A stretch of DNA of 36,832 bases, from NCBI GenBank assembly GCA_017438265.1, contig JAFRVZ010000058.1, forward strand, positions 1 to 36,832, in the 5' to 3' direction. Below the pieces are notes generated by a model that worked only from the letters and a program-made list of their open reading frames with translations, searched no databases and was not told where the DNA came from. The stretch comes from Bacteroidales bacterium (GTDB lineage: Bacteria > Bacteroidota > Bacteroidia > Bacteroidales > UBA932). Of the stretch, positions 5,238 to 11,181 are shown piece by piece. The translations under genes were made by a program, and so were the position numbers. How positions within the stretch are numbered: the stretch's first letter is position 1; each line of letters starts with the position of its first letter.

Positions 5238-5356
5238 TTCCGGCATAGTAATATGTATCCCTGAAACTGTGCCACCCTCGGCAACATAAGAGGGAGGGGC
5301 CCTTTAGGGAGGGGTCGCGCAGCGACGTTTCAGGGATACATATTACTATGCCGGAA
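5238..5356. repeat. 30-bp perfect inverted repeat enclosing three small hairpins
   Basis: Positions 5238-5267 and 5327-5356 are exact reverse complements (left arm begins TTCCGGCATAGTAATATG). The 59-nt interior can form three more stems: 5275-5279 with 5290-5294, 5300-5303 with 5306-5309, and 5314-5318 with 5322-5326. The last ends directly against the outer arm, giving a cloverleaf-like fold. The interior also has four G-tracts (GGGAGGGG twice between 5292 and 5314). The right arm contains an ATG at 5348 in frame with ftcD, but the real ftcD start is further on at 5390. It could be a MITE/REP-type element or a leader structure. Confidence 0.8.
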
Positions 5357-7132: not shown

Positions 7133-7175
7133 GTCATTTCGACTAAGGTCCGAAGGACCGCATGGAGAAATCTCT
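7133..7175 (+). repeat. REP-like palindromic repeat, left end of GIY-YIG element
   Basis: The copy consists of GTCATTTCGAC, a middle containing the small hairpin GGTCCGAAGGACC, and GGAGAAATCTCT. The outer parts can pair as an imperfect stem (ATTTC with GAAAT), as in REP sequences. Confidence 0.75.
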
Positions 7176-7176
7176 T

Positions 7177-7497
7177 ATGCATAAACAATACTGGATATAT
7201 ATTCTTTCAAATAAGACTGACACTACCTTGTACATTGGAGTAACAGATAATCTGGAAGCAAGGACACTTGAACACAGAGTTGGCACCAATGCAGGTTTTG
7301 CCGAGAAATACTGTTGTGACAAGTTGGTTTATTATGAAGAGTATTCCAGTATTGACCAGGCTATTGACAGGGAAAAACAATTAAAGAAATGGTCAAGGAA
7401 AAAGAAAGACTGGTTGATTGATCAGATGAATAAAGAGAGGAAAGACTTATTGCCAGAGATTTCTCCACTCGCTTCGCTCGGTCGAAATGACATCTAA
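7177..7497 (+). CDS. Small GIY-YIG superfamily endonuclease
   Basis: The best start is ATG 7177 (MHKQYWIYILSNK). The ATG at 7162 would add MEKSL, which is just translated repeat. The 106-residue protein holds one compact GIY-YIG domain: WIYILSN (GIY strand), LYIGVT (YIG strand), the Arg-containing RTLEHR helix, and the Glu in AIDREKQLKKW that binds the metal. This is the short UvrC-N/UPF0213-like type common in Bacteroidetes, with no extra DNA-binding domain. The gene is markedly AT-rich against its neighbours, a sign of transfer. Its last codons (LASLGRNDI) are encoded by the right-hand repeat, and the stop is 4 nt beyond it. It presumably nicks or cuts DNA, and its position between inverted repeats suggests it acts on or spreads them. 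Confidence 0.85.
   Translation: MHKQYWIYILSNKTDTTLYIGVTDNLEARTLEHRVGTNAGFAEKYCCDKLVYYEEYSSIDQAIDREKQLKKWSRKKKDWLIDQMNKERKDLLPEISPLASLGRNDI
7455..7491 (-). repeat. REP-like palindromic repeat, right end of GIY-YIG element (inverted)
   Basis: This is the reverse-orientation partner of the repeat at 7133. The middle (ACTCGCTTCGCTCG) differs from the left copy but contains the GCGAAGC mini-hairpin sequence on the other strand. The outer 11 and 12 bases match the left copy exactly. Confidence 0.75.
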
Positions 7498-7518: not shown

Positions 7519-7588
7519 TCATTTCGAGCACCACATTGTCATTTCGAGCACCACATTGTCATTTCGAGCGTAGTCGAGAAATCTTTTT
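7519..7588 (+). repeat. Tandem half-repeats followed by a full REP-like copy upstream of hutU
   Basis: The 20-bp unit ATTTCGAGCACCACATTGTC occurs twice in perfect tandem (7521-7560). A full repeat follows (7558-7588), reading GTCATTTCGAGCG, TAG, TCGAGAAATCTTTTT. The region is open in the hutU frame, so an ATG at 7536 would add a false N-terminus such as CHFERSREIF to urocanase. Confidence 0.75.
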
Positions 7589-7607: not shown

Positions 7608-9689
7608 ATGACTGATTTTCAAAGAGAGATTTTGGAAGGGATTCCGGCGGAGCTGCCGGAGGCGAAGCCGTATGACGCGGCGGTGAACCATGCGCCGCGG
7701 CGGAAGGACATCCTGACGGCGGAGGAGAAGGTCCTCGCCCTCAGGAACGCGCTCCGCTACTTCCCGGAGCGCCTCCACGCCGCCCTGGCCCCGGAATTCG
7801 CCGAAGAACTGCAGCGCTACGGCCGCATCTACATGTACCGCTACCGCCCCTCGTACGACATGTACGCGCGGCCGATCGACGAGTACCCGGCGAAATCGCG
7901 GCAGGCGGCGGCCATCATGGCGATGATCCAGAACAACCTGGACCCGCGCGTCGCGCAGCACCCCCACGAACTCATCATCTACGGCGGCAACGGCGCCATC
8001 TTCCAGAACTGGGCCCAGTACCGCCTCACGATGCGCTACCTCGCGACCATGACCGACGAGCAGACCCTCGCGATGTACTCGGGCCACCCCCTCGGCCTCT
8101 TCCCCTCCCACCGGGACGCCCCCCGCGTCGTCGTGACCAACGGCATGGTCATCCCGAACTACTCCAAGCCCGACGACTGGGAGCGCTTCAACGCCCTCGG
8201 CGTCAGCCAGTACGGCCAGATGACCGCCGGCTCCTATATGTACATCGGCCCCCAGGGCATCGTCCACGGCACCACGATCACGGTGATGAACGCGGCCCGG
8301 AAGGTGCTGCGGCAGAGATTTCTCGACTGCGCTCGAAATGACAGCGGGGGCGCTCGAAATGGCGGCGCGGACCTGGATGACCGCGGCGGGATGCTGTTCG
8401 TGACGGCGGGCCTCGGCGGCATGTCAGGCGCCCAGCCGAAGGCCGGCAACATCGCCGGCGTCGTCAGCGTGACCGCGGAAATCAACCCCCTCGCCGCGCG
8501 CAAGCGCTTCGAACAGGGCTGGGTCGACGAACTCCACGACAGCCTCGACGAACTCATCCCCCGCATCCGCAAGGCCGTCGCCGCGAAGGAAGTCGTCTCC
8601 CTGGCCTACGTCGGCAACGTCGTGGACCTCTGGGAGCGCCTCGCCGACGAACGCATCCGCGTCGACCTCGGCTCCGACCAGACCTCCCTCCACAACCCCT
8701 GGGCTGGCGGTTACTACCCCGTCAGCTACAGCCTGGAAGCATCCCAGCGGATGATGGCCGCGGAGCCGGACCGCTTCCGCAAGGCCGTCCAGGAGTCCCT
8801 GCGCCGCCACGTCGCCGCAATCAACCGCCTCGCCGCGGACGGGATGTATTTCTTCGACTACGGCAACGCCTTCCTGCTCGAAAGCTCCCGCGCCGGCGCC
8901 GACATCCTCCTGCCCGACGGGCGCTTCCGCTACCCGTCCTATGTCCAGGACATCATGGGCCCGATGTATTTCGACTACGGCTTCGGCCCGTTCCGCTGGG
9001 TCTGCATGAGCGAAAAGCCGGAGGACCTCGCGAAGACGGACGAAATCGCCGTGCGCGTCCTTTCGGAAATCGCCGCGACGGCCCCGGAGGAAATCGCCGG
9101 CCAGATGCGCGACAACATCCGCTGGATCCGGGAAGCCGGCCGCAACCGCCTCGTCGTCGGCTCCCAGGCCCGCATCCTCTACGCGGACTGCGAGGGCCGC
9201 ACGAAGATCGCCCTCGCCTTCAACGACGCGATCCGCAGCGGCGAAATCACTGCCCCGATCGTCCTCGGCCGCGACCACCACGACGTCTCCGGCACGGACT
9301 CCCCCTTCCGCGAGACCTCCAACATCTATGACGGCTCCCGCTTCACCGCCGACATGGCGATCCAGAACGTCATCGGCGACGCCTTCCGCGGCGCGACCTG
9401 GGTCTCCATCCACAACGGCGGCGGCGTCGGCTGGGGCGAAGTCATCAACGGCGGCTTCGGCATGGTCATCGACGGCAGCGACGACGCCGCCCGCCACATC
9501 CGCCAGATGCTGTTCTGGGACGTGAACAACGGCATCGCCCGCCGCAGCTGGGCCCGCAACGACGGCGCCCGCACCGCCATCGCCCGCGAAATGGCCCGCA
9601 CCCCCGGCCTCGAAGTCACCGTCCCCAACCTTGCCGATGAAACCCTGATCCGCGCCGTCATTTTGAGCGCAGTCGAAAAATCTCTTTAA
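7608..9689 (+). CDS. hutU: Urocanate hydratase (long form) with repeat-derived insertion
   Basis: The enzyme converts urocanate to 4-imidazolone-5-propionate, the second step of histidine degradation. The start is ATG 7608 (MTDFQREILEGIP) or possibly ATG 7596; upstream codons are repeat sequence. The 693-residue product resembles the long, animal-type urocanases. Visible landmarks are the glycine-rich NAD site TAGLGGMSGAQ (about 265-275), DLGSDQTSLHNPWAGGYYP, and GFGPFRWVC. Residues about 236-252 (QRFLDCARND...) are not part of the family; they are an inverted palindromic repeat inserted in frame just before the NAD-binding segment. The final residues (VILSAVEKSL) are encoded by another copy, with the TAA at its end. 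Whether the enzyme is still active is not known, but the frame is intact. hutH follows after 4 bp. Confidence 0.92.
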   Translation: MTDFQREILEGIPAELPEAKPYDAAVNHAPRRKDILTAEEKVLALRNALRYFPERLHAALAPEFAEELQRYGRIYMYRYRPSYDMYARPIDEYPAKSRQAAAIMAMIQNNLDPRVAQHPHELIIYGGNGAIFQNWAQYRLTMRYLATMTDEQTLAMYSGHPLGLFPSHRDAPRVVVTNGMVIPNYSKPDDWERFNALGVSQYGQMTAGSYMYIGPQGIVHGTTITVMNAARKVLRQRFLDCARNDSGGARNGGADLDDRGGMLFVTAGLGGMSGAQPKAGNIAGVVSVTAEINPLAARKRFEQGWVDELHDSLDELIPRIRKAVAAKEVVSLAYVGNVVDLWERLADERIRVDLGSDQTSLHNPWAGGYYPVSYSLEASQRMMAAEPDRFRKAVQESLRRHVAAINRLAADGMYFFDYGNAFLLESSRAGADILLPDGRFRYPSYVQDIMGPMYFDYGFGPFRWVCMSEKPEDLAKTDEIAVRVLSEIAATAPEEIAGQMRDNIRWIREAGRNRLVVGSQARILYADCEGRTKIALAFNDAIRSGEITAPIVLGRDHHDVSGTDSPFRETSNIYDGSRFTADMAIQNVIGDAFRGATWVSIHNGGGVGWGEVINGGFGMVIDGSDDAARHIRQMLFWDVNNGIARRSWARNDGARTAIAREMARTPGLEVTVPNLADETLIRAVILSAVEKSL
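8314..8363 (-). repeat. REP-like repeat inserted in frame within hutU
   Basis: AGAGATTTCTCGACTGCGCT continues into CGAAATGAC (8314-8342), the reverse complement of the full repeat. A second half-site, CGCTCGAAATGGC (8351-8363), follows, echoing the tandem half-sites upstream of hutU. The insert keeps the urocanase frame. Confidence 0.8.
9657..9689 (+). repeat. REP-like repeat forming the 3' end of hutU
   Basis: GTCATTTTGAGCGCAGTCGA is followed by AAAATCTCTTTAA. It differs by few bases from the copies upstream and supplies the last ten residues and the stop codon of urocanase. Confidence 0.72.
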
Positions 9690-9693
9690 CGCC

Positions 9694-11181
9694 ATGATTC
9701 ATGTCATTTCGAGCGAAAGGCTCTCCCTCGAACGCCTGAAGGAAATCATCGACGGCCACGCGAAACTCGTCCTCGGCGAGGAAGCGACCGCCGCCATCAT
9801 CAAATGCCGCAAGTACCTGGACAGCAAGATGGAAGACATCGGCCGCCCCGTCTATGGCATCACGACCGGCTTCGGCTCCCTGTACAACGTCACGATACCC
9901 GCCGGCGAGCTCTCCCAGCTCCAGCACAACCTCGTCGTCTCCCACGCCTGCGGGGCCGGCGAGACCGTCCGCCCGGAAATCGTCAAGCTGATGCTGTTCC
10001 TGAAGGCCCAGAGCCTCTCCTACGGCCATTCCGGCGCCCAGCTCATCACGGTCCAGCGTCTCATCGACATGTTCAACGAGGACATCCTCCCCGTCGTCTA
10101 CCAGCAGGGCTCCCTCGGCGCGTCCGGAGACCTCGCCCCCCTCGCCCACCTCAGCCTCCCGCTGATCGGCCTCGGCGAAGTCCTCTACCGGGGCTCCATC
10201 CGTCCCGCCGCCGAAGTCTGGGCCGAGAAAGGCTGGGAGCCCATCACCCTCCAGTCCAAGGAAGGCCTCGCGCTGCTGAACGGCACCCAGTTCATGAGCG
10301 CCCACGCCGTCTGGTCCATCCTGAAGTCGATGCGCCTCTCCCGCTGGGCCGACCTGATCGGCGCGATGTCCCTGGACGCCTACGACGGCCGCATCGAGCC
10401 CTTCCTCCCGCTGACCCACCACCTCCGCCCCCACGTCGGCCAGATCCTGACCGGCAAGCGTTTCCAGGAAATCCTGGAAGGGAGCGAGCTCATCAACCGT
10501 CCGAAGGAGCACGTCCAGGACCCGTACAGCTTCCGCTGCATCCCGCAGGTCCACGGCGCCGTCAAGGACAACATCCTCTATGTCAAGTCCGTGATTGAGA
10601 ACGAAATCAACTCCGCGACCGACAACCCGAACATCTTCCCCGACGAGGACATGGTCATCTCCGCCGGCAACTTCCACGGCGAGCCGATCGCGATTCCGAT
10701 GGACTCGCTCGCCATCGCGATGTCCGAGCTCGCGAGCATCTCGGAGCGCCGCATCTTCCAGCTGATCAACGGCGTCCGCGGCCTCCCGAAGTACCTCGTC
10801 GCCGAGCCGGGCCTGAACAGCGGTTTCATGATTCCGCAGTACACGGCCGCCAGCATCGTCAGCCAGAACAAGGGCCTCTGCTGGCCCGCCTCCTGCGATT
10901 CCATCCCCTCCTCGCAGGGCCAGGAGGACCACGTCAGCATGGGTTCCAATTCCGCGACCAAGCTCGTCCGCATCGTGGACAACACGGAAACGGTCCTCGC
11001 CATCGAGCTCTTCAACGCCGCCCAGGCCCTCGAGTTCCGCCGCCCGGCGAAGACCTCCCCCGTCCTCGAGCGCATCTTCGCCGATTACCGCACCGTCGTC
11101 CCCTTCCTCTCCCACGACACCTACATGCACCCCCACATCGCGGATTCCGTCACCTTCATCCGCCGCGAACAATACCTCTAA
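9694..11181 (+). CDS. hutH: Histidine ammonia-lyase
   Basis: The enzyme deaminates histidine to urocanate, the first step of the pathway. The 495-residue protein carries the MIO-forming triplet Ala143-Ser144-Gly145 in GSLGASGDLAPLAHL, at the position known from other HALs. Also seen are the N-terminal YGITTGFG motif and the NGTQFMSAH segment in the middle. The ATG at 9694 follows the hutU stop by 4 bp, so the two are cotranscribed. Bases 9703-9717 (GTCATTTCGAGCGAA) in codons 4-8 match the local palindromic repeat, although the resulting residues look normal for the family. The gene is convergent with hutI. Confidence 0.95.
   Translation: MIHVISSERLSLERLKEIIDGHAKLVLGEEATAAIIKCRKYLDSKMEDIGRPVYGITTGFGSLYNVTIPAGELSQLQHNLVVSHACGAGETVRPEIVKLMLFLKAQSLSYGHSGAQLITVQRLIDMFNEDILPVVYQQGSLGASGDLAPLAHLSLPLIGLGEVLYRGSIRPAAEVWAEKGWEPITLQSKEGLALLNGTQFMSAHAVWSILKSMRLSRWADLIGAMSLDAYDGRIEPFLPLTHHLRPHVGQILTGKRFQEILEGSELINRPKEHVQDPYSFRCIPQVHGAVKDNILYVKSVIENEINSATDNPNIFPDEDMVISAGNFHGEPIAIPMDSLAIAMSELASISERRIFQLINGVRGLPKYLVAEPGLNSGFMIPQYTAASIVSQNKGLCWPASCDSIPSSQGQEDHVSMGSNSATKLVRIVDNTETVLAIELFNAAQALEFRRPAKTSPVLERIFADYRTVVPFLSHDTYMHPHIADSVTFIRREQYL

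Follow-up and report, generated by a model that had tools for sequence, protein, structure and literature searches.

The 359-bp segment in which a GIY-YIG nuclease gene stands between two inverted palindromic repeats is probably a second type of mobile unit resembling a REPtron, composed of a gene from one clade of small GIY-YIG nucleases and of the CGTC-type REP that this clade serves. It lies in a stretch of Bacteroidales DNA of 36,832 nt (contig JAFRVZ010000058.1), which we refer to as the window. The clade and the REPs are paired, and from this pairing we infer that the protein binds, cuts and mobilizes the repeats. Since the pairing of gene and palindrome recurs across many phyla, the gene becomes a candidate enzyme behind a widespread repeat class, and we read the clade as the missing enzyme of the CGTC REPs, which would correspond to RAYT but work by an unrelated chemistry.

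The GIY-YIG gene and the repeats of the window

The ORF of the 359-bp segment matched the GIY-YIG domain (PF01541) with an E value of 3e-16 and a score of 59.7 bits against a cut-off of 22.6. Pfam, at E values up to 0.001, returned PF01541 and T5orf172 only, and no HUH/Y1 transposase domain was found in the flanked ORF. The gene is single-copy in the source assembly and AT-rich, with 36% GC compared with 67-68% in its neighbors. Seven residues (Y13, Y24, G26, R34, H38, E71 and N90) are invariant in the 24 members that were aligned, and these are residues with catalytic roles in GIY-YIG enzymes. The first ATG of the ORF (7162) falls within the left REP and the second (7177) is the likelier start. 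At the other end of the ORF, the right REP supplies the codons for the C-terminal residues. The dN/dS values of about 0.03-0.10 indicate purifying selection, with the Rhizobium values computed on 4 of 12 GIY-YIG genes and with synonymous change saturated in the comparison of the window with its relative G154. The features of the segment and its surroundings are collected in Table 1, in which the ftcD and hutU genes mentioned here and below are what we take them to be from their translations and from an earlier note.

Table 1. Positions of the GIY-YIG ORF and of REP copies in the window
Feature	Position	Strand	Description
Left REP	7133..7175	+	GTCATTTCGAC-(20 nt)-GGAGAAATCTCT; GTC tag outward; 20-nt center with inner hairpin GGTCC GAA GGACC
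GIY-YIG nuclease ORF	7162..7497	+	111 aa counted from ATG 7162
Right REP	7455..7491	-	GTCATTTCGAC-(14 nt)-GGAGAAATCTCT; GTC tag outward; arms as left REP, 14-nt center different
Two tandem 20-nt half copies TCATTTCGAGCACCACATTG	7519..7558	+	Tag arm only
Solo REP GTCATTTCGAGCGTAGTCGAGAAATC	7558..7583	+	Between GIY-YIG gene and hutU
REP in frame within hutU ORF	8315..8342	-	
Diverged REP copy	9657..9685	+	Makes C-terminus of hutU ORF
Half REP (TGTCATTTCGAGCG)	9702..9715	+	Start of ORF after hutU

The sequence-only reading of the window had described the gene as framed by exact inverted copies of one repeat, with solo copies close by. This is true of the 11-nt and 12-nt arms, which are exact inverted copies on the two sides, but not of the centers, which differ in length and in sequence (TAAGGTCCGAAGGACCGCAT on the left, CGAGCGAAGCGAGT on the right), so that an exact repeat over the whole of the flanking copies is ruled out. 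The alignment of the left and right flanks scored 14, compared with a highest score of 12 in 200 shuffles. The nearby solo copies were borne out, and they consist of three further REPs and additional half copies (Table 1). A strict pattern, GTCATTTCGA-N{3,30}-GAAATCTC, found 17 copies in the 1.74 Mb assembly (87.7% complete), and the reversed-pattern control found 0 in all 149 family genomes searched; the window REPs are therefore a dispersed multi-copy repeat.

The form of the window REP, TGTCAT...ATC, has the C/TGTC tag and the complementary AT at the stem ends that belong to the definition of a CGTC REP. This type has a 5-bp outer stem, a variable inner part with an apparent GA/GA internal loop and variable inner stem, and the tail CTC. 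When treated as single-stranded DNA, the window REPs folded no better than their shuffles, and neither did two further GA-loop REP types under the energy model used. The alpha and dRS3-like REPs gave stable single-strand folds, with z values of about -4 to -5.

Related repeats in other taxa

Repeats peculiar to the window sequence are ruled out as an explanation, since other genera have other arms in the same architecture. Within the source family, genes of other genera lie between inverted copies of different palindromes, for example TGTCATTCTGAGCGAAGCGAAGAATCTA, CCGTCATTCCCGCGAAAGCGGGAAC and GTTCGTCATTGCGAGGAGCGAAGCGACGAAGCAATCCAGA. Inverted palindromes also frame the gene in Sinorhizobium, Azospirillum, Shinella, Neorhizobium, Novosphingobium, Sphingobium, Aeromonas and Neisseria; these eight genera represent 8 of the 12 plasmid-collection loci that were fetched, out of 32 matching records. 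The form common to the repeats is an unpaired GTC tag, then AT plus a stem, and after the center the returning stem plus AT, followed by C. The base before the tag is C or T in most repeats, and the tag mostly points outward from the GIY-YIG gene. On inspection by eye, the alpha, Azospirillum and Neisseria copies have a stem of 8-9 bp, a loop of 4-5 nt and a CCA-like tail.

The REPs also form doublets away from the gene, of which 29 were tag-outward, 10 inward and 8 in the same direction, with a median spacer of 33 nt. The doublets thus share their tag-outward polarity with the REP-GIY-REP arrangement. Local arrays of alpha REPs were observed at one locus of G418 (L291) and on contigs G360:C22 and G207:C52. 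In the G360 array, the copies have the same orientation at a spacing of about 247 nt, suggesting tandem amplification.

The records behind three of the plasmid entries (L051, L054 and L177) had a GIY-YIG match for which the PLSDB table lists no gene. Because that gene table is incomplete, the GIY-YIG family may or may not be under-annotated.

How often GIY-YIG genes are flanked by REPs

The sequence-only reading implied that homologs of the gene should generally be flanked by repeats and that repeat numbers should follow the presence of the gene, and both expectations agree with the counts given in this and the next section. Genome contigs were scanned with search patterns that demand conserved peptides, and the best 80 of 574 loci were kept, ranked by similarity to the window protein. 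According to their record titles, these come from Bacteroidota, Pseudomonadota, Bacillota, Acidobacteriota, CPR, Chloroflexota and others. The flank motif was defined as GTCAT-xyz...rc(xyz)-ATC within 200 nt of the gene. Three loci were too close to a contig end, which left 77 testable loci of the 80.

Any REP within 200 nt was found at 64 of the 77 testable loci among the best 80 of 574, compared with 125 of 883 control ORFs, and REPs on both sides with their tags outward were found at 33 of these 77 and at 9 of the 883. The controls were mechanical ORFs of at least 90 aa taken from 112 fetched loci, namely the 80 and 32 others. By this motif, 13 of the 77 loci (best 80 of 574) had no REP and 44 did not have the full outward pair. 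Since part of the query is encoded by the right REP, an artifact of its C-terminal residues was considered; it is ruled out, as the loci from the best 80 of 574 that remained without hits reaching REP-encoded residues had any REP in 49 of 60 cases and both outward REPs in 23 of 60. The motif itself occurred 362 times in 1.25 Mb, compared with 19 times after base shuffling. A gapped inverted-repeat score of at least 16 between the two flanks was reached at 35 of the 77 loci (best 80 of 574) and at 21 of 794 controls.

Other samples gave similar results. Any REP copy was present at 14 of 20 GIY-YIG loci in the first family sample and at 9 of 12 plasmid loci. With a distance of 250 nt, a REP was found beside 24 of 26 tested loci (of 30) in the order of the host, 12 of them with both REPs outward, and beside 19 of 27 tested loci (of 30) in the Rhizobium-type family, for which the sample consisted of 151 genomes from the family of G208. 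These locus sets overlap, in that L312 is the window, L191 is L093 and L193 is L108. UPF0213/YhbQ, another GIY-YIG family, whose proteins are of similar size and include the nearest solved relatives by sequence (PDB 1ywl and 1zg2, E about 0.001), differs in this respect: in the same 151-genome sample, a flanking REP was found at 0 of 25 testable loci (of 27), and 17 of the 25 genomes that carry these control genes contain the alpha repeat.

Repeat abundance and presence of the gene

In the 151 genomes of the Rhizobium-type sample, the alpha repeat (at most 1 mismatch) was carried by 57 of the 69 genomes that have the gene and by 22 of the 82 that do not (p 5e-12, uncorrected for relatedness), and the reversed repeat used as a control was found 0 times in all 151. 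Total copies numbered 970 in the gene-bearing and 276 in the gene-less genomes. Thresholds of 3 and 5 copies were used because gene-bearing genomes include their own flanking REPs; at 5 or more copies, the counts were 42 of 69 and 15 of 82. The 22 gene-less genomes that carry the alpha REP have up to 60 copies, 15 of them having 5-60, and 12 of the 69 gene-bearing genomes do not have this REP variant.

In the order of the host (247 genomes), at least 3 copies of one repeat type were found in 14 of the 36 genomes whose match was strong, compared with 16 of 211 others, and at least 1 copy in 17 of 36 compared with 35 of 211. A strong match here means an E value of at most 1e-28, a cut that we chose at a gap in the list. 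When the gene states were shuffled within the 24 mixed-state families, the observed value was reached in 73 of 20000 shuffles for at least 3 copies and in 182 of 20000 for at least 1, which rules out family-level relatedness as the sole cause in this order. Genomes with weaker relatives (E values from 1e-28 to 1e-10) showed no excess at 3 or more REPs (9 of 61 compared with 21 of 186) and a weak excess at 1 or more (20 of 61 compared with 32 of 186, p 0.018). In the first family sample, the gene was present in 5 of the 12 genomes that carry the window-type repeat and in 13 of the 137 that do not.

The REP-GIY-REP unit and its boundaries

Over 8 nt in 45 elements, left and right arms agreed at 0.91 within an element and at 0.60 between elements. 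Protein similarity and arm similarity were correlated across the 81 loci with an outward REP (Mantel rho 0.25, a value reached in 0 of 999 permutations), and mean arm identity rose from 0.55 at 45-50% protein identity to 0.93 above 75%. Relatedness of the hosts can contribute to this covariation. Genome G209, in which both clades are present together, is a control for such a host effect. It has three GIY-YIG loci, each flanked by REPs that face outward, and two of the three are frameshifted. The REP loop reads CTTGA at both clade A copies and CTTGT at the single clade B copy, which in this agrees with clade B of another genome.

The clade A unit of G209 was used as a query to locate its boundaries. 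Copies in related genomes, like the second copy in G209, aligned from 642-645 to 1019-1037 of the query, in which the REPs span 645-1017. The outer ends of this unit are GTC and GAC, and the homology stops within 20 nt of them. Outside the copies the DNA differs, and by eye about six sites are represented among nine copies. At two loci (L341 and L342), the left homology begins inside the unit. The REPs are thus terminal inverted repeats that limit the unit at different sites, in the manner of an insertion sequence. REP-GIY-REP is a unit whose full, internally deleted and absent states are all found at one site. Like insertion sequences and MITEs, it has terminal inverted repeats, internal-deletion derivatives and more than one copy in one genome, but it differs from them in having no classical transposase and no demonstrated target duplication: by eye, no target-site duplication was seen beside the G209-type units, and the empty and filled intergenic sites were too diverged for the target to be placed.

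Presence, absence and decay at single sites

A comparison of ftcD-hutU gaps, proposed together with the sequence-only reading, did reveal presence and absence of the gene. A search of 61 genomes of the genus returned 30 loci, one of which was the window. All of the other 29 were checked for the gene, including two (L146 and L162) in which ftcD was not recognized beside hutU, and it was present in one, that of G154, whose repeat centers are the same as the two of the window except for one base. The gap of G203 contains a solo REP, those of G175 and G172 contain other REP types, and no REP was found at the remaining loci where the gap was read.

The sufB-sufC site provides a second series. In Azospirillum lipoferum 4B, the gene lies between two REP doublets inside sufB-sufC. 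The corresponding gap is short and gene-less in A. ramasamyi, A. oryzae, Azospirillum sp. B510, A. thermophilum and A. brasilense. In Rhizobium, where the site was identified by homology, loci were read from 30 of 80 genomes, and 12 of these 30 have the gene between identical REPs, 11 of them with a full-length frame. Another (G418) has the gene with an expanded REP array, three (G422, G459 and G450) retain no more than degraded REPs or what an internal deletion left between REPs, one (G452) has the hybrid palindrome described below, and the other 13 have neither gene nor REP. At this site, the gene looks vertically kept rather than moving. Many of the gene-less Rhizobium gaps (L293, L296-L303 and L306-L308) contain a conserved insert of another kind, about 320 nt long, and no REP. 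GIY-YIG units between sufB and sufC were observed in A. lipoferum (L055) and at two Rhizobiales loci (L181 and L182), and their presence in both Azospirillum and rhizobia means either that one site was used repeatedly or that the unit was inherited from long ago.

Two gene-less loci, in Sinorhizobium K101 and Rhizobium G452 (entries L177 and L304), have a hybrid palindrome in which the outer halves of two REPs, the left half of one and the right half of the other, are joined, so that one end has the GTC tag and the opposite end GAC. Such palindromes may be the trace of an excision or show a site as it was before insertion. In S. meliloti Ak57, all 5 of the 5 repeat copies found in a 3.7 Mb record are located at the GIY-YIG locus, where an internally deleted tandem copy lies beside the full copy; this count comes from a search of 12 genomes plus 4 records of the 18 loci, with two omitted for their size.

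Relation to known repeats and enzymes

CGTC REPs were surveyed by Di Nocera, De Gregorio and Rocco in 2013 (PMC3733652), and that paper describes them as having an unpaired CGTC/TGTC tag, stems of 8-9 bp whose first and second positions are complementary AT, loops of 4-5 nt and a CCA-like tail, as existing mostly in HH dimers with some copies within genes, and as occurring in five phyla. There, CGTC-1 of Neisseriae is equated with dRS3, and the class includes RPE-4 and RPE-6 of Rickettsia. The GTAG REPs are tied to RAYT in the same text, while the CGTC REPs "apparently lack a dedicated transposase", and their origin was left open for want of a transposase with which to link them. The main text of PMC3733652 has no occurrence of "GIY", and passages of PMC6006769 and PMC8266576 contained nothing on CGTC enzymes. 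Among the repeats of this analysis, those of the alpha type, of Azospirillum and of Neisseria fit the class as PMC3733652 describes it. The window subtype, with its 5-bp outer stem and GA/GA-like loop, is outlying compared with the 8-9 bp stems given there, and the class, which has no assigned enzyme in that text, is here paired with a GIY-YIG gene.

No report of a GIY-YIG/CGTC REP pairing was found in the literature searched, from which bioRxiv and most subscription journals were absent. The sequence-only reading had known of no established description of the pairing, and this stands for the pairing itself but not for the repeats, which belong to the known class of PMC3733652. The link between the CGTC REPs and the GIY-YIG clade thus appears to be new, while the repeat class and the REP/RAYT design were already known.

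With REP/RAYT systems (REPtrons and REPINs; PMC3116915), the likeness lies in an enzyme gene beside inverted tagged palindromes, in many non-autonomous doublets and in an enzyme clade that matches its repeat type. The two differ in the tag, which is GTC/CGTC here and GTAG in RAYT systems, and in the enzyme, a GIY-YIG nuclease here and an HUH/Y1 tyrosine transposase there. The GIY-YIG unit, whose enzyme gene is flanked by clade-specific inverted repeats of its own, works like a GTAG REPtron without being a member of that group.

Proposed mode of action and alternatives

In the mechanism that we favor, the GIY-YIG protein would recognize the GTC-tagged palindrome as a single-strand hairpin, a cruciform or a duplex, and would nick or cut at or near the GTC tag, after which host replication or repair would copy the unit to other places. 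Recognition of a cruciform or directly of a duplex is equally open, because the window-type and GA-loop REPs fold no better than shuffles. The protein may work on REP-GIY-REP in cis and, in trans, on the tag-outward REP doublets with their spacer of about 33 nt; given such action in trans, the solo REPs would be non-autonomous offspring. GIY-YIG enzymes hydrolyze DNA and are not known to join ends, so that joining would be left to the host, as in homing, and movement of short hairpins by a nuclease of about 95 residues would be new in its mechanism. Several observations weigh against this reading: gene-less genomes with the alpha REP and gene-bearing genomes without this variant, loci with no REP or no outward pair by the motif, no excess at 3 or more REPs among weaker relatives, single-strand folding of the window REPs that is no better than in shuffles, no target-site duplication that could be delimited, and a gene at the Rhizobium sufB site that looks vertically kept.

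The main rival to a REP-specific nuclease is a homing-type selfish nuclease, which would cut at or beside solo REPs and have its unit copied in by break repair with the palindrome arms as homology, the REPs themselves being spread by other means. GIY-YIG domains are classic homing nucleases, the unit shares with the GIY-YIG homing endonucleases the catalytic domain and a compact, selfish-looking form, and a genome has one or a few copies of the gene compared with many REPs. The hybrid palindromes of the gene-less K101 and G452 loci look like the pre-insertion or excision state that homing would leave, which is suggestive only, as the same palindrome is also obtainable by deletion between 9-nt direct repeats inside the REPs. 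Most empty sites that were read have no REP by motif, so that a pre-existing REP seems needless for insertion, and the abundance of the REPs itself follows the presence of the gene. No intron or intein was seen here, and the ends of the unit, in contrast to homing elements, are palindromes with many solo copies. Homing is an unlikely account.

It is less likely still that the nuclease has a housekeeping or guardian role, in which it would resolve or trim REP cruciforms and be kept where REPs are common, with the flanking REPs serving regulation as promoter, terminator or autoregulatory element. The strong purifying selection and the stable sufB-sufC position in the Rhizobium clade would fit such a host-serving gene, but this role leaves unexplained why paired outward REPs are the limits of homology at different sites and why most relatives lack the gene, which only 18 of 149 family genomes have. 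A passive association, in which AT-rich foreign genes and REPs merely share permissive intergenic sites, is consistent with the intergenic location of both and with REPs beside other ORFs (125 of 883 controls), but it is largely refuted and hardly credible, since control ORFs of the same loci and the UPF0213 family (0 of 25) have far fewer flanking REPs than the GIY-YIG loci (64 of 77 among the best 80 of 574), and since tag polarity, arm matching (0.91 compared with 0.60) and the covariation of protein and arm would not be expected from it.

If the REP-specific nuclease is the correct reading, REP-like populations evolved with two unrelated nuclease folds, and the generic annotation "GIY-YIG nuclease family protein" gains a function. 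We lean, by a small measure, toward the wider claim that a bacterium-wide class of mobile DNA, with a GIY-YIG nuclease of about 95 residues as its sole enzyme, generated the CGTC REPs, so that REP-type repeats arose with two unrelated enzymes, HUH and GIY-YIG. The repeats so explained would be dRS3, RPE and the common intergenic palindromes of alpha-proteobacteria and Bacteroidota. There is a real chance that the chemistry of these units is of a new kind. By record titles, the CGTC REPs extend here to more phyla than the five of the 2013 survey (PMC3733652), and a specific enzyme candidate turns the stated open question of their origin into a testable one.

Inserts in coding sequences and neighboring genes

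The same reading, if true, would give a source for in-frame inserts in proteins, among them the hutU insert of the window and perhaps the Rickettsia inserts. The hutU in-frame REP inserts resemble the RPE insertions known from Rickettsia. By eye, the variable loop of hutU has REP-like inserts of different types in the window and in three related species (L148, L151 and L153), and it is without a REP-like insert in most others that were aligned.

A perfect 30-nt inverted repeat lies upstream of ftcD in the window (5238-5267 and 5327-5356), its arms 59 nt apart, and by eye it is unrelated to the REPs. On a Planktothrix plasmid (L057), the GIY-YIG gene is located between a type IIL restriction enzyme (MmeI) and the DISARM gene drmA, with several REPs close by.
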